Part shown: positions 2 through 10,972 of the stretch, in pieces
How positions within the stretch are numbered: the first letter of the stretch is position 1
How the letters are laid out: each line of letters begins with the position of its first letter
NCBI GenBank assembly: GCA_945862125.1
Contig: CAMAYC010000034.1
Span: forward strand, 1-42,372
Source of the DNA: Reyranella massiliensis 521
GTDB taxonomy: Bacteria > Pseudomonadota > Alphaproteobacteria > Reyranellales > Reyranellaceae
Reading direction: 5' to 3'
Length of the DNA stretch: 42,372 bases
Translations under genes and position numbers: made by a program
The notes under the pieces: generated by a model
Database searches by the model: none
What the model was told of the DNA's origin: nothing
What the model saw: the letters and a program-made list of their open reading frames with translations, nothing else

Positions 2-241
2 ATCCTCGAAGGCTGGGTCGAGCGCGACGGCAAGTTGCCGGTCAACGTCTCGGGCGGGCTCAAGGCAAAGGGCCATCCTGTCGGCGCGACGGGCGTTTCC
101 ATGCACGTCATGTCGGCCATGCAGCTCTCGGGCAGCGCGCCCGAAGGCCTGCAGCTGCCGAAAGCCAAAATCGGCGGCGTGTTCAACATGGGCGGCGCCG
201 CCGTCGCAAACTATGTGAGCATCCTCGAACCGTTGCGCTGA
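2..241 (+). CDS. SCP2-type thiolase family protein, C-terminal end (partial)
   Basis: Only the last 79 codons lie in the window; the gene is open at the left edge and ends in TGA. The visible part carries the thiolase motif KGHPVGATG, whose His activates the catalytic Cys in thiolases. The last conserved block, where classical thiolases have a second active-site Cys in a CxG motif, reads [10 protein letters not shown] and has no Cys. That is typical of the sterol-carrier/SCP2-like branch, often annotated acetyl-CoA acetyltransferase. Substrate cannot be judged. The next gene starts 4 bases after the stop, so the two are probably cotranscribed. Confidence 0.85.
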
Positions 242-245
242 GCGG

Positions 246-1202
246 ATGCGGGCCGTCAGCCATCGCGAGAGCGACGCCATCCTGGGCGCGATGCGCCAGG
301 TGGCATTGGCGGGCGGGCGCGCGCTGAGCCACGCCGATACGGCGAGCATCCTGGCCGCCGGGCACTATCTGCTGCGCCGGCCCGATCTCACCGACATCAG
401 CAGCTTGCCCGCCATGGAGCCCGCCGACCTCGTCGCAATCCTGAAGAACCGCGAGGTGGCAGCCGAAGCCGTGAAATACCTCGCCATCATGGCCATGGTC
501 GACGGCACGCTCGACGCCGGCAAGCTGAAGCGGGTGCTGGAGTATTCCCGGGCGCTCGATATCGAGGCCGACTACCTCACCGATCTCGTCGAGGCAGCCT
601 CGGGCCATCTCGCTTGGGCCACGGCGGATATGTGGCGCAAGAACTTCGACAGCATCATCAGCCGCTCCTCCGAGGGCCTCGATCCGGGGATCTGGATCAG
701 GCCGTACGAGGGAGCAAACGCCGATCCCGCCCTGGTCGCCCGCTACGAGGCCCTGGGCAGGCTGCCGCAAAATACCTTCGGCAAGGCGCTATGGGACTTC
801 GACAAGAAGAACGGCTACCCGTTTCCCGGCGACCCCGCGGCCCTCAACGCCGCGTTCGGCACGGCACACGACTCCACGCACGTGATCTCCGGCTACGATA
901 CCAGCGCGCGCGGCGAGCTGCTCGTCTCCACCTTCACCGCCGGCATGCATCCCATCAACCCGATGAGCGGCCACATCCTTCCGGTGATCTTCTTCTTTCA
1001 CTTCGGCGAGCAGCTGAACGACGTCGGTCACGCCGGCAAGGGCGGACTCGACCCCGACGAGTTCTGGCATGCCTGGGCACGCGGCGAGGCGATGACAGTC
1101 GACATTTTCGATCCGAAATGGAACCTCTGGGACTGGATCGAGCGCGACCTGGAAGAACTGCGGCGCGACTGGAACGTCGCGCCGCCGGGCCACAGACTCT
1201 AG
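246..1202 (+). CDS. TerB-like / Coq4-like fusion protein
   Basis: A 318-residue soluble protein. Residues 208-224 give HDSTH followed by exactly 11 residues and Glu224, the HDxxH-x11-E zinc-site signature of Coq4, the ubiquinone-biosynthesis scaffold and decarboxylase. The region around it (about 150-310) also has Coq4 flavour, including an FHFGEQLNDVGH stretch. Residues 65-125 look like a TerB-type helical domain (MAMVDGTLDAGKLKRVLEY), unlike stand-alone Coq4. The start at 246 is the only ATG near the thiolase stop; spacing to a Shine-Dalgarno is poor, suggesting translational coupling. Role is inferred: quinone or other lipid handling coupled to the upstream thiolase. Coq4 family membership is fairly secure; the TerB assignment is by eye. 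Confidence 0.8.
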   Translation: MRAVSHRESDAILGAMRQVALAGGRALSHADTASILAAGHYLLRRPDLTDISSLPAMEPADLVAILKNREVAAEAVKYLAIMAMVDGTLDAGKLKRVLEYSRALDIEADYLTDLVEAASGHLAWATADMWRKNFDSIISRSSEGLDPGIWIRPYEGANADPALVARYEALGRLPQNTFGKALWDFDKKNGYPFPGDPAALNAAFGTAHDSTHVISGYDTSARGELLVSTFTAGMHPINPMSGHILPVIFFFHFGEQLNDVGHAGKGGLDPDEFWHAWARGEAMTVDIFDPKWNLWDWIERDLEELRRDWNVAPPGHRL

Positions 1203-1218: not shown

Positions 1219-2016
1219 TCAGACCACCGGGCTGGCGCCGCCGTCGACGTTGATGGCAACGCCGGTGATGAACGAACCCGCATCCGAGCACAGGAAGCAG
1301 GCCATGCGCGCGAATTCCTCGGCCTTGCCCATGCGGCCGAGCGGGATGCGGCCCTTGGCCATGCCGGCCAGGAATTCCTCGTAAGTCTTGCCCTCGCCGG
1401 CCGCTGTCTTGTGGCGGCGCTGCCACTGGTCGCTCTCGATCAGACCCACCAGCATGGCATTCACCAGCACGCCATGCTGGGCGTTCTCCTGGCTCATCGC
1501 CTTCGTGAGCGCGAGGCCCGCGGCGCGGCTGACGCTGGTCGGCGTCGAGTTGGCGCCGGGCGCCTTGGCGCCGATGTTGAGCACGTTGACGATGCGGCCC
1601 CACTTCCGCTCGCGCATGCCAGGCAGCACCAGACGGGCGAGGCGGATGGCCGCGAACAATTTCAGGTCAAGATCGCCCTGCCAGTCCTCGTCGGTCACGG
1701 TGTCGAACGGCTTGGCGTGGCTGATGCCGGCATTGTTCACCAGGATGTCGACCTTGCCGAAGTCGGCCACGACCTTCTTGATCGTATCGGCGATCGGCGC
1801 GGCCTTGGAGACGTCGCAGGAATAGGCCTCGATCTTGATGTTGGCCTTGCCGGCCGCCTTCTGGACCTCGGCCTTGGCGGCACTGAGTGCGTCGGCCTTG
1901 CGTGCGAGGATTGCCACCGAACCGCCAGAGGCTGCGAATTCCTTGGCCATGGCAAGGCCAAGACCGGTGCTCGCGCCCGTGATCACGGCCACGCGGCCGT
2001 CCATACGTACGTCCAT
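1219..2016 (-). CDS. SDR family protein with replaced catalytic residues
   Basis: A 265-residue short-chain dehydrogenase/reductase fold. The cofactor motif TGASTGLG (13-20) and NNAG (94-97) are intact. The classical catalytic Asn-Ser-Tyr-Lys set is not: by alignment the positions are Lys119, Asn147, Thr160 and Arg164 (APGANSTPTSVSR). This looks like a conserved divergent SDR subgroup rather than decay, because the surrounding sequence is clean. It starts 28 bp after xdhB with a strong GGAGGAG 8 bases before ATG 2016, so it is the third gene of the xdhA-xdhB operon. Substrate unknown. Confidence 0.85.
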   Translation of the reverse strand: MDVRMDGRVAVITGASTGLGLAMAKEFAASGGSVAILARKADALSAAKAEVQKAAGKANIKIEAYSCDVSKAAPIADTIKKVVADFGKVDILVNNAGISHAKPFDTVTDEDWQGDLDLKLFAAIRLARLVLPGMRERKWGRIVNVLNIGAKAPGANSTPTSVSRAAGLALTKAMSQENAQHGVLVNAMLVGLIESDQWQRRHKTAAGEGKTYEEFLAGMAKGRIPLGRMGKAEEFARMACFLCSDAGSFITGVAINVDGGASPVV

Positions 2017-2044: not shown

Positions 2045-4342
2045 CTATGCCTTCACTGTAGCGATTGCCGCGAGCACACGCTCGGGCGTCGCCGGCGCGT
2101 CGAGCCGCACTGCGGTCTTGCCGTTACCCGCCGCTGCGATGGCGTCCTTAAGGGCGGTCCATACCGCCGTCGCCAGCAGCAGCGGCGGCTCGCCCACCGC
2201 CTTGGAACGGAAGATCGTCGCCTCGCGCGAGGGCGCGTTCGCGAGCATCTTAACGTTGAACACCTGGGGCACGTCGCGGCTGCCGGGGATCTTGTAGGTC
2301 GAGGGGCCGACGGTGCGCAGCTTCCCGTTCTTGTCCCACCACAGCTCCTCACAGGTGAACCAGCCCTGGCCCTGCACGAAGGCGCCCTCGATCTGGCCGA
2401 GATCGATGGCAGGGTTCAGCGACTCGCCGCAATCCTGCACCAGGTCGGCGCGAAGCACGCGGGTCTCGCCGGTCAGCGTATCGATCGCGACCTCCGCCAT
2501 CGCCGCGCCAAAGGAGAAATAGAAGAACGGCCGGCCGCGCATCGCCGCGGCGTCCCAGTGGATCTTTGGCGTCTTGTAGAAGCCAGTCGCCGACAGCGAC
2601 ACGCGGCCCAGCCAGCAGAGTTTCGCAAGCTCGCCAAAGCTCACGACCTGGTTGCTGCCGGGTTTGACGATGCGCACGTTGCCGTCGGCGAACTCGATCT
2701 CGCTTTCGGCCGCGCCGAAATGCTCCGACGCAAAGGCGATCATGCGCGTCTTGATGGTGTTGGCTGCCTCCCACGCGGCCCAGCCGTTCAGGTCCGAGCC
2801 GGTGGAGGCCGCCGTCGGCGAGGTGTTGGGCACCTCGGCCGTCGACGTGGCGCTGGGCCGGATGCGGTCGACCTCGACCCCAAAAACCTCGGCCACGATC
2901 TGCGCCACCTTGATGAACAGCCCCTGCCCCATCTCGGTGCCGCCGTGGTTCAGGCGGATCGAGCCGTCGATGTAGACATGCACCAGCGCGCCGGCCTGGT
3001 TCATGTGCGGCAGGTTGAAGGAGATGCCGAACTTCAGCGGGAAAAGTCCCAGCCCGCGCTTCAGGATCGGGCTCGTCCTGTTGAAGGCATCGACCTCGGC
3101 CCGGCGGCGTTCCCAGTCTCCGCCCTGCTTCACGTCGGCCCAGCAGCGGGCGAGATGGTTCTCGTCGACCTTTTGGCCGTAGGGCGTCTCGTCGCCGCCT
3201 GCGCCATAGAAGTTGAGCACCCGCACCTCATTGGCGTCGCGGCCGAGATGGTGCGCGATGCGATCGAGCGCGTCCTCCATGATCACCACACCCTGCGGCC
3301 CGCCGAAGCCGCGGAAGGCGGTATTGGACTGTTTGTTGGTCTTGCAGGGGTAGCCAGCTGCACGGAAGTGCGGAATCCAGTAGGCGTTGTCGGTGTGGGT
3401 GAGCGCGCGCGCCATCACGCCGGGCGTGAGATCGAGGCTGAAACCCGCATCGGCCGCCAGCATCGCATCGAGTGCCAGCACCCTGCCGTCATCGTCGAAA
3501 CCAACGGTGTAGCGATAGAGGAAAGGATGGCGCTTGCCGGTGGCGATCATGTCGATCTCGCGCGGCAGGCGGAGTTTCACCGGCCGGCCGGTCGCGTTGG
3601 CCGCCACCGCCGCGGCGCCCGCGACCCACGACGCGTTGCTCTCCTTGCCACCGAAGCCGCCGCCCAGCCGGCGCACCACTGCGGTGATGCGATTGTAGTC
3701 GCAGCCCAGCAGGCGCGCGCAGATGTGCTGCACCTCGGTCGGATGTTGCGTCGAGGAATGGACGACGATGTCGCCGTCCTCGCCGGGCAGGGCGAAGGCG
3801 ATCTGGCCTTCGAGATAGAAATGCTCCTGGCCGCCGACGCTGAACTCCGCGCTCAGCCGGTGCGGTGCGTTCTTGAGCGCGGTATCGGGATCGCCGCGCA
3901 GGAGGGTCGTCGGCGTCTGGACATAGGACTTCCGGGCAAGCGCGGTCTCGATATCGAGGATCGGTTCGTCCGCCTCGATGTCGGCCTTCACCCGTTCGGC
4001 CGCGCGCCGCGCAGCGTCCAGCGATGTCGCCACGACCATCGCCAGGGGCTGGCCCGCGAACTCGACACATTCCTCGGCGAAAAGAGGCTCGCCATGATGG
4101 CCCGCCGCAACATCGTTCTTGCCCGGAATGTCGCCGGCGCCCAGCACGGCAACCACACCCGGCATCGCCGTGGCGGCGGCAAGATCGAGCTTGCGCAGGC
4201 GGCCGCTCGCCACGGGGCTCAGCACCAGGGCGACATGCAGCGTGCCCGGCGGCTCGGGCATGTCGTCGATGTAGAGCGCCTGGCCCGTCACATGCTTCAG
4301 GGCGCTGTCGTGGCGCTGGGCGCTATGGACCGCGCCCTTCAT
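2045..4342 (-). CDS. xdhB: Xanthine dehydrogenase, molybdopterin-binding subunit
   Basis: A 765-residue molybdenum hydroxylase large subunit. It oxidises hypoxanthine and xanthine to urate with the FAD/2Fe-2S subunit XdhA. The molybdopterin glycine loop GGGFGGKE ends in Glu234. Arg312 (VMARALTH) lies 78 residues on and Arg344 (AFRGFGGPQG) 110 residues on, the same spacings as bovine Glu802, Arg880 and Arg912, which supports true purine specificity. The catalytic base lies in KAVGEPP near the C-terminus. The open frame extends far upstream of ATG 4342, but this start overlaps the xdhA stop by ATGA and gives the family length. No xdhC chaperone gene is visible in the window. Confidence 0.93.
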   Translation of the reverse strand: MKGAVHSAQRHDSALKHVTGQALYIDDMPEPPGTLHVALVLSPVASGRLRKLDLAAATAMPGVVAVLGAGDIPGKNDVAAGHHGEPLFAEECVEFAGQPLAMVVATSLDAARRAAERVKADIEADEPILDIETALARKSYVQTPTTLLRGDPDTALKNAPHRLSAEFSVGGQEHFYLEGQIAFALPGEDGDIVVHSSTQHPTEVQHICARLLGCDYNRITAVVRRLGGGFGGKESNASWVAGAAAVAANATGRPVKLRLPREIDMIATGKRHPFLYRYTVGFDDDGRVLALDAMLAADAGFSLDLTPGVMARALTHTDNAYWIPHFRAAGYPCKTNKQSNTAFRGFGGPQGVVIMEDALDRIAHHLGRDANEVRVLNFYGAGGDETPYGQKVDENHLARCWADVKQGGDWERRRAEVDAFNRTSPILKRGLGLFPLKFGISFNLPHMNQAGALVHVYIDGSIRLNHGGTEMGQGLFIKVAQIVAEVFGVEVDRIRPSATSTAEVPNTSPTAASTGSDLNGWAAWEAANTIKTRMIAFASEHFGAAESEIEFADGNVRIVKPGSNQVVSFGELAKLCWLGRVSLSATGFYKTPKIHWDAAAMRGRPFFYFSFGAAMAEVAIDTLTGETRVLRADLVQDCGESLNPAIDLGQIEGAFVQGQGWFTCEELWWDKNGKLRTVGPSTYKIPGSRDVPQVFNVKMLANAPSREATIFRSKAVGEPPLLLATAVWTALKDAIAAAGNGKTAVRLDAPATPERVLAAIATVKA

Positions 4343-5736
4343 AGCGCCCCGACCTCGACGGCGCGTCCCGGCTCGGCGATCCGCCAATAAAGCCGGCGCA
4401 GCAGGTTGGCGGCGATGGTCAGGCGATAGGCAGCCGAGCCGCGCCAATCGTCGATCGGCTGGAAATCCTTTGGCACCTGATGCGCGGCGGCCTCGAAGGT
4501 CGCCGCGGAAAAGGATTGGCCCTTCAGCGCCAGCTCGACATTGCGCGCCCGCGCGGGCGTCGCCGCCAGGCCGCCGAAGCCCGTGCGTACATCCTCGATC
4601 GTGCCGTTCTTGATCCTGAGTCGATAGGCGCCGGCGACCGTGGAAATATCCTGGTCGCGGCGCTTGCTCACCTTGTCGCAGAAGAAGACCTCGCCCGGCC
4701 ACAGGCGTGGGATCGAGAGGCTCTGGATCACCTCGTCGGGCGCCAGCGCGGTCTTGCGGTAGCCGAGGAAGAATTCTTCCAGCGGCAGGTCGCGCGCACC
4801 ACGGACGGAGACCAGTTTCAGGCTTGCCTCCAGCGCCAGCAGCACCGGCGGCATGTCGCCGATCGGCGAGGCCGTGCCGATGTTGCCGCCGATCGTGCCC
4901 AACGAGCGGATCTGCCGCGACCCAAGCCGCGCAAGATAGGTTTTCAGCGCCGGGTACGCCGCGATCAGAGTCGGCATCGCGTCGGCATAGGTTGCGGCGG
5001 CACCGATCGTGACCTGTTCCTTGTCTTCCGCGATGGCCGTCAGCTCCGGCACGTGCGCCACATGAATTACCGCGGCCGGCGGCTTGCGCGATCGGCTGGC
5101 CAGCAAGCCGAGGTCGGTGGCGCCCGCCAGCAGCAGCGCCTCGGAGTACTGTGCCCTCAACGTCAGCAGATCGGCCAGCGAGCGCGGCGCGAAGAAGCGG
5201 CCGTCGAAAGCCGCCGACTGCTCGCGTGCCAGCGCGGAAGGAGCCGGCCCGACTGGCAGGCCCGCCACCTTGGTCATGGCCTCGACGATCGGCCGATAGC
5301 CGGTGCAGCGGCAGAGATTGCCGGCCAGCGCGTCGTGTATGATTTCCAGATCCGCCGCCTCGCCACCGGCGGCAAAGGCGTAGGCCGACATCACGAAGCC
5401 CGGGGTGCAGAAGCCGCATTGCGTGGCGTCCGATTCGGCCATCGCCACCTGCACGGGGTGTGCCGCCCCTTCCGTTCCGCGCAGTCCCTCGACCGTGCGC
5501 ACAGACAGACCGTCGACCTGGCCCAGCAGCGCGATACAGGAGTTAACCGCCTCGCGGCGTCCATCGCTGCGCTCCAGCACCACGGTGCAGGCGCCGCAGT
5601 CGCCCTCGGCGCAGCCCTCCTTGGTGCCTTTCAGCCCGCGCTGCTCGCGCAGCCAGTCGAGCAGGGTCGTCATCGGCGAGACGCCGACGAGCTCGACCGG
5701 ACCGTCGTTGAGCGTGAAGCGAATGTTATCCGCCAT
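4339..5736 (-). CDS. xdhA: Xanthine dehydrogenase, FAD/iron-sulfur subunit
   Basis: A 465-residue subunit that passes electrons from the molybdenum centre to NAD+. The N-terminal ferredoxin-like 2Fe-2S domain has Cys42, 47, 50 and 67 (GCAEGDCGAC). The second 2Fe-2S domain has Cys107, 110, 142 and 144 (QCGFCTP and NLCRCTGYRP). The FAD-binding domain follows from about residue 170, with ATDLG and a TIGGNIGTASPIGD loop. I chose ATG 5736 (MADNIRF) over an in-frame start at 5814 because it matches the family N-terminus. First gene of the operon, divergent from the PuuE-like gene with 76 bp between the starts. Confidence 0.93.
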   Translation of the reverse strand: MADNIRFTLNDGPVELVGVSPMTTLLDWLREQRGLKGTKEGCAEGDCGACTVVLERSDGRREAVNSCIALLGQVDGLSVRTVEGLRGTEGAAHPVQVAMAESDATQCGFCTPGFVMSAYAFAAGGEAADLEIIHDALAGNLCRCTGYRPIVEAMTKVAGLPVGPAPSALAREQSAAFDGRFFAPRSLADLLTLRAQYSEALLLAGATDLGLLASRSRKPPAAVIHVAHVPELTAIAEDKEQVTIGAAATYADAMPTLIAAYPALKTYLARLGSRQIRSLGTIGGNIGTASPIGDMPPVLLALEASLKLVSVRGARDLPLEEFFLGYRKTALAPDEVIQSLSIPRLWPGEVFFCDKVSKRRDQDISTVAGAYRLRIKNGTIEDVRTGFGGLAATPARARNVELALKGQSFSAATFEAAAHQVPKDFQPIDDWRGSAAYRLTIAANLLRRLYWRIAEPGRAVEVGAL

Positions 5737-5812
5737 GCGAACAGGATGCGGGGCGTTGAAGTGGAGCGCAACCCGTGATGCACTCGACATGCCAAACAAA
5801 GAAAGAGATCGC

Positions 5813-6712
5813 ATGGATCCGTACCGCTACGGCTATTCTCCCGTCGTCGAGCGCCCGAAGCTTTCCTGGCCCAACGGCGCGCGTGTCGCGGTCTGGGTCT
5901 GCCCCAATATCGAGCATTACGAATACATCCCGGCCGAGGTCCGTGTGCGCAATCCCTGGCCGCGCATGCCGCATCCCGACGTGCTGGGCTACGGCGGCCG
6001 GGACTATGGCAACCGCGTCGGCCTGTGGCGGATGTTCGAGGTCCTGGACAAGCACAGCGTGCGCTGCACGGTCTCCCTCTCGATGTCGGTCATCGAAATG
6101 TTCCCCGAGATCCTCGAGGCCATGGAGGCCCGGCGCTGGGAATACATGAGCCACGGCTATCTCAACACACGCTACCACTGGGGTTATAGCGAGGACGAGG
6201 AGCGCGCGGTCATCGAGCACAGCAAGGCCACCCACCTGCGCCTGACCGGCCGCAAGCTGCGCGGCTGGTTCTCGCCCGCCATCTCCAACACCTTCAACAC
6301 GCCCGACCTCGTGAAGGAGGCGGGCCTAGAATACATCTGCGACTTCTATCATGACGACCAGCCGACGCCGCTCGCGACGAAGCACGGCCCGCTGATCCAC
6401 GTGCCCTACACGATGGATCTCAACGACGCGCTGATCTACCGCCAGCCGGTCGAGGCCGAGGAATTCGCGCAGATGATCATCGACCATTTCGACACGGTCT
6501 ATCGCGAGGGCAACGAGAACGGCCGCGTCATGTGCATTGCGCTCCACCCCTACATGATGGGGGCGCCGCATCGCGTGAAACACCTCGACCGTGCGCTCGC
6601 CTACATCCGCAAGCACAAGGACGCCTGGGTCTGCACCGCCGAGGAGATCCTCGATCACTATGTGGCCAACGGGCTGAAACCCTATCAACAGCACCTCGGG
6701 AAGGAGGCGTGA
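5813..6712 (+). CDS. PuuE-like polysaccharide deacetylase-fold protein (paralogue 1)
   Basis: A 299-residue NodB/polysaccharide deacetylase-fold protein. It resembles the PuuE branch (metal-independent allantoinases): the usual metal-binding HxxxH is replaced by SHGYLNTRY, followed by a GWFSPAISNT segment, a DFYHDDQPTP turn, and VPYTMDLND, which all have counterparts in PuuE. The start at 5813 has GAAAGAGA 5-12 bases upstream and aligns with the MDNPWYDYSP part of the downstream paralogue; an in-frame ATG at 5789 is possible. The position beside xdhAB suggests ring opening in purine or related amide catabolism, but this is inference. It could act on another cyclic amide. Confidence 0.8.
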   Translation: MDPYRYGYSPVVERPKLSWPNGARVAVWVCPNIEHYEYIPAEVRVRNPWPRMPHPDVLGYGGRDYGNRVGLWRMFEVLDKHSVRCTVSLSMSVIEMFPEILEAMEARRWEYMSHGYLNTRYHWGYSEDEERAVIEHSKATHLRLTGRKLRGWFSPAISNTFNTPDLVKEAGLEYICDFYHDDQPTPLATKHGPLIHVPYTMDLNDALIYRQPVEAEEFAQMIIDHFDTVYREGNENGRVMCIALHPYMMGAPHRVKHLDRALAYIRKHKDAWVCTAEEILDHYVANGLKPYQQHLGKEA

Positions 6713-6713
6713 G

Positions 6714-7634
6714 ATGACCGCTCCCGTTTCCAAGAATCCGCCGCCGCTGCCGGCCGGGATGGACAATCCCTGGTACGACTATTCGCCCTATCCGAAACGC
6801 CCGCTGCTCGCCTGGCCAAAGAACGCTCGGGTCGGCTGGTTCGTGCTGCTGCACCTCGAATACTGGGAGCTCGTCCCCGACGAGACGAGCCTCAAGGACC
6901 CGCGCCACGTCGGCGAACTCGGCAGCTACACGCCCGATTACCGCACCTGGACCCAGCGCGACTTCGGCAACCGAGTCGGCATCTTCCGCGTGCTCGACGT
7001 GCTCGACCGCTACCAGATCCGGGCCGGCGTGGCCGTGAACGCGCTGGCGGCCGAGCGCTATCCCTACCTGATCGAGCAGTTCAAGAAGCGGAAGTACGAG
7101 TTCATCGCCCACGGCCATTCGGCCAATCGCATGATCTCCTCCAGGATGACCGAGGCCGAGGAGAAAGCCGAGATCGCCTCATCGATCGCCGCGGTCGAAA
7201 AGGCGGCCGGCATCCGGCCGACCGGCTGGCTGGGACAGGACTATGGCGAGAGCCAGCGCACGCCGCAGCTCCTGGCCGACGCCGGCCTCGACTATGTGCT
7301 CGACTGGCCGAACGACGACCAGCCCTACCCGATGAAGGTCGGCAAGAAGTTCGTCTCCATGCCCAACCAGCCGGAATGGGACGACGTCCAGCAGCTCATG
7401 ATGCGTCGCATCAGCACCACGCGCTATCCCGACCTCGTGGCCGATGCCTTCGAACTCCTGCACCGGGAGGGCGGCCAGGTGTTCAACCTCTCGATCCATC
7501 CCTGGCTGATGGGCATGGCGCACCGCATAAAATATCTCGACGAGGCGCTGCGCCGGATCGAGCGCTTCGGCAACAGCTGGCAGGCAACGCCCGGCGAAAT
7601 CGCCCGACACTACAGCGACACGATGATGGGCTGA
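6714..7634 (+). CDS. PuuE-like polysaccharide deacetylase-fold protein (paralogue 2)
   Basis: A 306-residue paralogue of the preceding protein, starting one base after its stop, so clearly cotranscribed. Conserved landmarks are RDFGNRVGIFRVLDVLDRY, AHGHSANRM, GWLGQDYGES, DWPNDDQPYP and the C-terminal SIHPWLMGMAHRIKYLDEAL, each matching the first copy. It differs in the stretch after the DDQPYP turn: the VPYTMDLND segment becomes SMPNQPEWDD, so substrate pockets probably differ. The two proteins may form a heteromer or act on successive substrates; neither is shown by the sequence. Confidence 0.8.
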   Translation: MTAPVSKNPPPLPAGMDNPWYDYSPYPKRPLLAWPKNARVGWFVLLHLEYWELVPDETSLKDPRHVGELGSYTPDYRTWTQRDFGNRVGIFRVLDVLDRYQIRAGVAVNALAAERYPYLIEQFKKRKYEFIAHGHSANRMISSRMTEAEEKAEIASSIAAVEKAAGIRPTGWLGQDYGESQRTPQLLADAGLDYVLDWPNDDQPYPMKVGKKFVSMPNQPEWDDVQQLMMRRISTTRYPDLVADAFELLHREGGQVFNLSIHPWLMGMAHRIKYLDEALRRIERFGNSWQATPGEIARHYSDTMMG

Positions 7635-8827: not shown

Positions 8828-9598
8828 TCAGAATTTGGGCGCACGCTTCTCCAGGAACGCCGCCGTGCCCTCGTGGTAGTCGGGGCCGAAATAGACGTCC
8901 CGGCGCAGTCCATGGAGATACTCGTAGGTGGCCGGGTTGATCGAAACCGATTCACTCAGCACGCGCATCGCCTCCTTGGAGGCGGCGATCGCCCTGGAGG
9001 AACGCGACGCGATCGTCTTGGCCATCGCATAGGTTTCCGCCTCGAGCGCGGCTGCCGGCACGACCCGATTGACGATGCCGACGCGCTCGGCCCGGTCGGC
9101 CGGAATGAGATTCGCCGAGAAGAACATCTCCTTCGCCACGGTGAGCGGCAGGCGACTCATGAAGTTGAGAATGCCGGCGACGTTGTACGGCAAGCCGAGC
9201 TTGGCGGGCGTGATGGCGAAGGCACAGGTCTCGTCGCCCATCACGATGTCGCAGGCCATGACCAGATCGCACGCGCCGCCCCACGCCGACCCGTGAACCA
9301 TGGCGATCACCGGGGCCGGGAACGCCTTGACCGCCCGTAGCAACTGTTCCAGCGGATCGCTGTAAGGCAGCGGATCGACGTCCGCCCTCGGCAGCTCGCC
9401 GACGTCGTGACCGGCCGACCAGACCTTGCCACCGGAGGCGCTGCGCAGCACCACCACTCGCACGCCATCGGTCTTGAAGGACTCCAGGGCCGCAATCATC
9501 TCGGCGATCAGGTCGGCGCCGAGGGCGTTGCGCTTGTCGTCGTGGTCGAAGGCGATGGTGCCGATCTTGTCGGCAAGCGTGGTCTTGATCAGCGGCAT
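8828..9598 (-). CDS. scpB: Methylmalonyl-CoA decarboxylase-like crotonase
   Basis: A 256-residue crotonase-fold enzyme. It aligns through its length with E. coli ScpB (YgfG), which decarboxylates (R)-methylmalonyl-CoA to propionyl-CoA: KVWSAGHDVGELP, DPLPYSDPLEQ, MVHGSAWGGACDLVM, TPAKLGLPYNVAGI and the C-terminal DYHEGTAAFLEKRAPKF all have close counterparts. His64 and Tyr138 fall where the active-site pair of the E. coli enzyme is placed, from memory. I chose ATG 9598 over the longer frame because it gives family length and sits 11 bp after the CoA-transferase stop. The pairing with a CoA-transferase mirrors scpB-scpC. A generic enoyl-CoA hydratase is the alternative. Confidence 0.82.
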   Translation of the reverse strand: MPLIKTTLADKIGTIAFDHDDKRNALGADLIAEMIAALESFKTDGVRVVVLRSASGGKVWSAGHDVGELPRADVDPLPYSDPLEQLLRAVKAFPAPVIAMVHGSAWGGACDLVMACDIVMGDETCAFAITPAKLGLPYNVAGILNFMSRLPLTVAKEMFFSANLIPADRAERVGIVNRVVPAAALEAETYAMAKTIASRSSRAIAASKEAMRVLSESVSINPATYEYLHGLRRDVYFGPDYHEGTAAFLEKRAPKF

Positions 9599-9609
9599 GC
9601 GATCGATCC

Positions 9610-10929
9610 TCAGATCAACGTGACTTTGCGGGCCGCCGACATCAACTCGTCGCGAAAGGCCGGATGGGCAATCCCGATCAGCGCGAGCGCCCGTTCCTTG
9701 GTCGACTTGCCCCGCAGGTTCACCGCACCATGCTCGGTGACCACCCATTCGACGTCCATGCGCAGGTCGGTCACCATCGCGACCTTCGGCACGATGCTGG
9801 AGATCGTTCCCTTCCGCGCCGTCGACTGGATCGCGATGATCGACTTGCCGCGCTTCGCCAGCGAGGCGCCCTTGACGAAGTCGAACTGGCCACCCGACCC
9901 GCTGTACTCGTGCTCGCCGATGAACTCGGCGTTGACCTGCCCATAGAGGTCGATCTCGATCGCGGTATTGACCGAGATGAAGTCGTCGTGCTGCGCGATC
10001 GTGCGGATGTCGTTGACGTAGGACGAGGCGTAGCTCTCGAAAGCGCTGTTGTCGTTCATGAAGGCGTAGGACTCGGTCGTGCCGAAGGCCACGGTGAAGA
10101 CGTGCTTGCCGGGGTGAAGTGCCTTGCGCGCACCGGTGATGACGCCCTTCTGGACCAGGTCGGCCATGGCCGGCGAGAACAGCTCGGTGTGGATGCCGAG
10201 GTCCGAATGCTTCTCCAGGGCCATGGCAACGCCTGAGGGTATCTTGCCGATACCGAGCTGGATCGTGGCGCCATTCGGCACCATGGGCGCGACCAGGGCG
10301 CCGATGGCACGCCCCTCGGGCGATGGCTCGGCGACACCGGCCTCGATCAGCGGGATATGGTTTTCGACGATCGCCGTCACTTCGCTCACGTGAATTTGCG
10401 ACTGTCCGAACACCCGGGGCATGTTGCGATTGACCTCAACGATCAGGCGCTTGCACCGCCGCGCGGCGGTCGAGGCGAAATCGTTGTTCGTGCCCAGCGA
10501 GAAAAATCCGCCCCCGTCCATCGGCGAGACGGTCACGATGAAGGTGTCGAGTGCGATCAATTCCTCGAACAGGCGGGGGATCTGGCTGAAGTTGACGGGA
10601 ACGAAGCTCAGCAGCTTCTTGCCGGTCTTGACCTGACGCTTGATGATCTCGTGATCGGGGCCGCCGATGAAGAAACTGTGGGCATCGACCTTCTCGATGA
10701 CATCCTCGGCCAGCAGCGACTTGGCCAGCGGCTCCATGGCGATCTTGTAATAGAGCCGGATCTGCTTGAGATCGTTCGACCGCAGCCGGCCACCGAGCGC
10801 CGCCAGCAAGGCCGGCGGTTGGCCGATCGCCATGCCGAGGGAAACCGTGGCACCATCGGGTACGCCTGAAACCGCCTTCTCGGCGGTCGTAAGTTTGGCC
10901 GCGTATAAGTCAGCGTACCTGGTTGCCAT
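9610..10929 (-). CDS. Acetyl-CoA hydrolase / CoA-transferase family protein
   Basis: A 439-residue class I CoA-transferase resembling 4-hydroxybutyrate CoA-transferase and, more distantly, ScpC, the propionyl-CoA:succinate CoA-transferase that is longer in E. coli. The nucleotide-binding glycine segment is GSGGQFDFVKGAS, and the likely catalytic glutamate is Glu249 in GIHTELFS. ATG 10929 was chosen over an overlapping TTG at 10932 because GAGGGAG lies just upstream. Together with the following scpB-like gene it could turn methylmalonyl-CoA into propionyl-CoA and recycle the CoA moiety. No mutase gene is nearby. Confidence 0.82.
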   Translation of the reverse strand: MATRYADLYAAKLTTAEKAVSGVPDGATVSLGMAIGQPPALLAALGGRLRSNDLKQIRLYYKIAMEPLAKSLLAEDVIEKVDAHSFFIGGPDHEIIKRQVKTGKKLLSFVPVNFSQIPRLFEELIALDTFIVTVSPMDGGGFFSLGTNNDFASTAARRCKRLIVEVNRNMPRVFGQSQIHVSEVTAIVENHIPLIEAGVAEPSPEGRAIGALVAPMVPNGATIQLGIGKIPSGVAMALEKHSDLGIHTELFSPAMADLVQKGVITGARKALHPGKHVFTVAFGTTESYAFMNDNSAFESYASSYVNDIRTIAQHDDFISVNTAIEIDLYGQVNAEFIGEHEYSGSGGQFDFVKGASLAKRGKSIIAIQSTARKGTISSIVPKVAMVTDLRMDVEWVVTEHGAVNLRGKSTKERALALIGIAHPAFRDELMSAARKVTLI

Positions 10930-10972
10930 CAATTCACTCCCTCAAGCGGCGTCTCGCCAACTCAGCGGCGCA

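Follow-up and report, generated by a model that had tools for sequence, protein, structure and literature searches.

A TerB-Coq4 fusion protein of Reyranella, possibly an accessory lipid-modifying enzyme

The chemistry of Coq4 was assigned recently and is still debated, the protein being viewed as a decarboxylase, an oxidative decarboxylase or a scaffold. A gene in Reyranella massiliensis 521 encodes a protein with the Coq4 metal motif behind a TerB-like segment, and raises two questions: is this a true union of the two families, and does it serve ubiquinone synthesis or something else? The gene lies at one end of the window, by which we mean the whole stretch of 42,372 nucleotides that was analysed. 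The features discussed are the following.

2..241, forward strand: 3' end of an SCP2-type thiolase gene (NF005704 / PRK07516), cut by the contig end
246..1202, forward strand: TerB-Coq4 fusion gene, an open reading frame of 318 amino acids plus stop, with orthologues 63-93% identical and Ka/Ks of 0.12-0.18
246..587, forward strand: TerB-fold domain, residues 1-114 (VIA-align to 2h5n and 2ou3; paralogue model; hhalign to a TerB profile)
567..1184, forward strand: Coq4-fold domain, residues ~108-313 (VIA-align to 6e12 and 3msq; profile match to PDB 6e12; hhalign to canonical Coq4)
867..917, forward strand: Coq4 metal motif HDSTH-x11-E, residues 208-224 (invariant in 51 of 51 members; aligns with HDxxH and GE of 6e12 and 3msq)
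1219..2016, reverse strand: SDR-family oxidoreductase gene, a convergent neighbour conserved across the genus

The fusion reading frame is a real gene under purifying selection. Its ATG start lies 4 nt behind the stop codon of the thiolase gene, and the orthologues, 63-93% identical, are held by Reyranella genomes. Ka/Ks between orthologues is 0.12-0.18 for the whole gene; the Coq4 half, at 0.07-0.15, stays below the N-terminal half, at 0.18-0.28. These ratios, together with a GC content at third codon positions (GC3) of 0.87, rule out a reading-frame artefact.

A Coq4 domain, strongly divergent yet complete, spans residues ~108-313. Searched as a single sequence, the protein matches Pfam model PF05019 only as a fragment, at 16.8 bits, and its C-terminal half alone reaches 18.9 bits, both below the cut-off of 22.9. 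A profile built from 29 members of the fusion family recovers both Coq4 homologues of known structure, 6e12 (E 9e-6) and 3msq (E 1e-3), and hhalign against 17 canonical alphaproteobacterial Coq4-like proteins returns 99.1% probability with E 8.5e-19 over columns 171-322. An AlphaFold2 model of the protein has a mean pLDDT of 86.5; VIA-align of its residues 105-313 gives Z 10.4 against 6e12 (156 residues) and Z 8.9 against 3msq. The resemblance to the family of human COQ4, yeast Coq4 and Nostoc Alr8543 (PDB 6e12, 3msq) thus extends over the fold at ~108-313 and HDxxH-x11-E, and also takes in an LPxxTxG stretch, a GE followed by F, and the C-terminal residues G280, R306 and N310. The fusion protein differs from that family in its sub-cut-off score as a single sequence, in its extra N-terminal domain, in being absent or decayed in some close relatives, and in coming from a genome with UbiD and UbiX. 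Canonical alphaproteobacterial Coq4-like proteins, 245-300 residues long, share the core and the C-terminal half with it but lack the TerB domain, and their motif is mostly preceded by R-x-R-D, where the fusion family has G-T-x or G-L-Y.

The motif that drew attention to the gene, HDSTH-x11-E, lies at residues 208-224 with exactly the COQ4 spacing, as the preliminary description had it. H208, D209, H212 and E224 are invariant in all 51 family members, as are Y217, T219, G223, G280 and R306, although those members fall into two groups only ~32% identical to each other. Among orthologues the region around the ligands is the most conserved part of the protein (92%), and the model places the motif residues on two consecutive helices, 207-215 and 221-234. 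No second motif of this kind occurs in any of the window's six frames. When the protein was shuffled, the motif arose in 575 of 300,000 cases (0.2%), which with the conservation in 51 of 51 members rules out a chance occurrence. The alignment and the helix positions of the model would bring the four residues together as a metal site, and this site is probably occupied; an active site is favoured because the ligands are intact and conservation is strongest around them. The motif need not mean catalysis, however, since Coq4 may itself be partly a scaffold.

The N-terminal half has the fold of TerB without, for the most part, its acidic signature. VIA-align of residues 1-114 gives Z 9.7 against 2h5n (rmsd 3.4 over 112 residues) and Z 8.7 against 2ou3, with the next unrelated chain at Z 4.9. 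A second model, built from the ~32%-identical paralogues alone, gives Z 10.2 and 9.5 for the same two structures and 5.5 for the next; its mean pLDDT is 58.9, and only its TerB half was used, the Coq4 half being set aside as too poor. Both structures are recognised as members of the TerB family by an independent profile of 31 alphaproteobacterial TerB domains. Helical folds may attain Z values of this size by chance arrangement; we call the fold TerB because of the gap to unrelated chains, because both matches belong to the TerB family, and because there is a sequence signal as well. That signal, E 3.7e-5 and 71% by hhalign of the N-terminal half against the TerB profile, comes from the second repeat only, ~57-114. 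Pfam TerB (PF05099) does not match the window protein, and the best family member, a paralogue, scores 21.0 bits against a cut-off of 24.4; searched by itself against PDB sequences, the N-terminal half found nothing significant (2ou3, E 1.2). The segment first delimited as TerB-like, residues 65-125, lies close to this second repeat; it is real but was drawn too small, the fold covering residues 1-114.

An N-terminal half that aligned as ordinary Coq4 sequence had been named beforehand as evidence against a fusion. It was not seen: the half has 0.1% probability against the Coq4 profile and 71% against TerB, and the TerB and Coq4 structural ranges scarcely overlap, which rules out an ordinary Coq4 N-terminus. 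The protein is thus almost certainly a two-domain fusion of TerB and Coq4, as first proposed, and both sequence profiles and structure comparison bear this out. A literature search returned no relevant paper joining the two.

The acidic tetrad D14/E21/D85/E92 is invariant in the 31 TerB sequences. In the fusion family, position 23 is mostly G or S, 31 is D in 34 of 51 members, 86 is D in all 51, and 93 is K, T or M; the first half of the tetrad was matched by eye, D31 with a one-residue shift. Because the tetrad is mostly lost, the initial view of the TerB part as a metal binder finds no support, and docking or dimerisation appears the likelier role for the fold. Compared with known TerB proteins (PF05099; PDB 2jxu, 2ou3, 2h5n), the fusion protein shares the helical fold over 1-114 and a recognisable second ADG-type repeat; it differs in keeping only D86 invariant, with D31 in 34 of 51, in scoring under the Pfam cut-off and in lying outside any ter operon.

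Of 65 Reyranella genomes searched with the family profile, 52 encode the full-length fusion, counting orthologue and paralogue alike. The 10 genomes searched from the family's other genera lack it, as does one further member of the order. Two overlapping samples, 385 genomes from the class and 398 from the phylum, which hold part of the sequenced species, gave no further case; the weak matches there are plain Coq4-type or plain TerB-type proteins. Within the sampled genomes, then, the fusion is confined to Reyranella. Plasmid records and viral contigs gave no match, which speaks against a plasmid or viral origin.

Thirteen of the 65 Reyranella genomes, near-complete ones among them, have no match to the fusion. 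Decayed copies occur beside an intact thiolase gene in two genomes: in one (G024, locus L215) only residues 1-83 and 280-315 are left, with a frame change, and in the other (G046, locus L216) the remains are scattered over several frames. Several further genomes have the thiolase and SDR genes with no fusion gene in between. Because these neighbours remain while copies of the fusion gene have decayed, the gene has been lost, or is absent, without loss of its neighbours; it is dispensable at the level of the genus.

The position directly downstream of an SCP2-type thiolase gene, part of the original description, was confirmed: the gene lies upstream on the same strand across the 4-nt gap, and its product has C84 and the HDCF and GHP motifs. 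A fragment on contig C242 of this genome is very probably the remainder of this thiolase gene. Of 45 genomes compared, 31 have no more than 75 nt between the thiolase and fusion genes, and in the other 14 the distance is 0.7-7.7 kb. The thiolase family is matched in all 65 Reyranella genomes (60 over cut-off). In the class sample, 21 of 96 genomes have a match over cut-off; most of these are other alphaproteobacteria, and in them inspection by eye for a constant thiolase partner, including a DUF35-type one, found no constant neighbour. The suggested tie to acyl-CoA metabolism consequently stands as circumstantial: close adjacency in 31 of 45 genomes speaks for it, while the wide gaps in 14 and the persistence of the thiolase in genomes without the fusion gene speak against it. 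A functional link between the two proteins is, on balance, rather doubtful. In the deep-branching genomes represented by L078 (L078:4118-5956) and similarly by L178 and L079, the thiolase and fusion genes are separated by a large gene of ~610 codons, monooxygenase-like by eye, and a similar gene stands beside the thiolase gene in a fusion-less genome.

What might the protein do? We tentatively propose an accessory metal-dependent enzyme that applies Coq4-like chemistry to a lipid other than ubiquinone, with the TerB fold as a docking or dimerising module. In the Coq4 domain, H208, D209, H212 and E224, carried by two adjacent helices, would be the ligands of a divalent metal (Zn or Mg), and the helical pocket would hold a long-chain lipid, as Coq4 homologues do. 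The Zn-dependent decarboxylation by COQ4, which requires this motif (PMC7615680), and the lipid and Mg present in 6e12 (PMC9774615) speak for this reading. Because the metal would activate a carboxylate or similar head group, the protein could modify lipids, most likely by decarboxylation or oxidative decarboxylation of some lipid that is not the ubiquinone precursor; such catalysis is a fair way short of assured. The TerB fold, with most of its acidic residues lost, would provide docking or dimerisation, possibly towards the SCP2-type thiolase; we infer substrate and partner alike. One might go on to suppose, with greater reserve, that this genus has turned a Coq4 scaffold away from ubiquinone synthesis and towards another lipid, thiolase-derived or not, reusing the TerB fold for docking.

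The protein could instead be a non-catalytic lipid-binding or scaffold protein, with an acyl or prenyl lipid bound in its Coq4 fold and the TerB fold docking it onto enzymes such as the thiolase. Coq4 homologues bind long-chain lipids, oleate or prenyl (PMC9774615); Coq4 was moreover long regarded as a scaffold (PMC11495197, PMC8969065). A TerB fold stripped of its acidic residues suits docking, and an SCP2-type thiolase gene adjoins in most genomes. Catalysis or a structural metal, however, fits better than a passive pocket with four ligands plus Y217, T219 and G223 invariant in 51 of 51 members across groups only ~32% identical, and we regard a purely passive protein as unlikely.

Still less likely is a ubiquinone factor, a Coq4 orthologue whose task is C1 (oxidative) decarboxylation, help with that step, or organisation of the Ubi enzymes. 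Animal COQ4 carries out a Zn-dependent C1 decarboxylation for which the motif is required (PMC7615680), a reaction alternatively described as oxidative decarboxylation (PMC11495197). Motif and fold are the same here. A canonical Coq4 over the Pfam cut-off occurs in one of 65 Reyranella genomes, leaving 64 without, and in relatives a haem-copper oxidase operon resembling cyo quinol oxidase lies divergently upstream of the thiolase gene, beside the locus. Against this, the usual bacterial route for ubiquinone C1 decarboxylation is UbiD with UbiX, and the window's genome has both: its UbiD reaches 747.9 bits against the equivalog model of the ubiquinone type, narrowly short of that model's cut-off (788), and is well above the one set for the UbiD family. 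The fusion protein is thus no substitute for a missing UbiD or UbiX. Thirteen of 65 genomes lack the fusion and two copies are decayed, though all these bacteria presumably need ubiquinone; no ubi gene was recognised beside the fusion gene, and its divergence from canonical alphaproteobacterial Coq4 is strong. The protein is probably not the ubiquinone C1 decarboxylase, and a main role in ubiquinone synthesis is unlikely because UbiD and UbiX are present and the gene is dispensable across the genus; a side role it may have. Where the preliminary description spoke of a variant lipid or quinone enzyme, the quinone part is weakened accordingly. A Ter-type metal or stress-response protein with the Coq4 half as effector is highly improbable despite the TerB-type fold, given the mostly lost tetrad, a neighbourhood in which no ter genes were seen, and an ordinary TerB that the genome encodes separately, with a J-like C-terminus.

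A precedent for a Coq4 paralogue outside ubiquinone synthesis, itself unproven, is a COQ4-like gene in the shikonin network of Lithospermum, proposed for a non-ubiquinone pathway by inference (PMC8969065); it belongs to the plant COQ4 family and a naphthoquinone pathway, and a TerB domain is not reported for it. If the proposal of an accessory lipid enzyme is right, the fusion would be an enzyme of the Coq4 family, from bacteria, that acts on something other than a quinone, and would open Coq4 chemistry to genetics in a dispensable system. A dispensable bacterial relative of Coq4 that keeps all ligands and probably acts on another substrate would separate the role of fold and metal from the needs of ubiquinone synthesis. 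The fusion also shows a TerB fold, with most of its acidic residues gone, in use outside Ter systems.

Many Reyranella genomes also carry the ~32%-identical TerB-Coq4 paralogue, absent from the window's own genome, behind TrmFO and before genes for a small acyl carrier protein and a MATE transporter (L064, L071, L073, L075 and L077; for example L071:5455-6417). In another group, L065-L068 (for example L067:5373-8842), the paralogue adjoins a divergent TetR-like regulator, a phospholipid N-methyltransferase-like gene and cysteine synthase, a context that is a further hint at lipid metabolism. Elsewhere in the window, positions 2048-7631 hold two genes for a xanthine-dehydrogenase-like molybdoenzyme next to two genes of the polysaccharide-deacetylase family (possibly of allantoinase type), a possible purine-degradation cluster. 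Genes of the enoyl-CoA hydratase and acetyl-CoA hydrolase/transferase families lie adjacent at 8831-10932 on the reverse strand.
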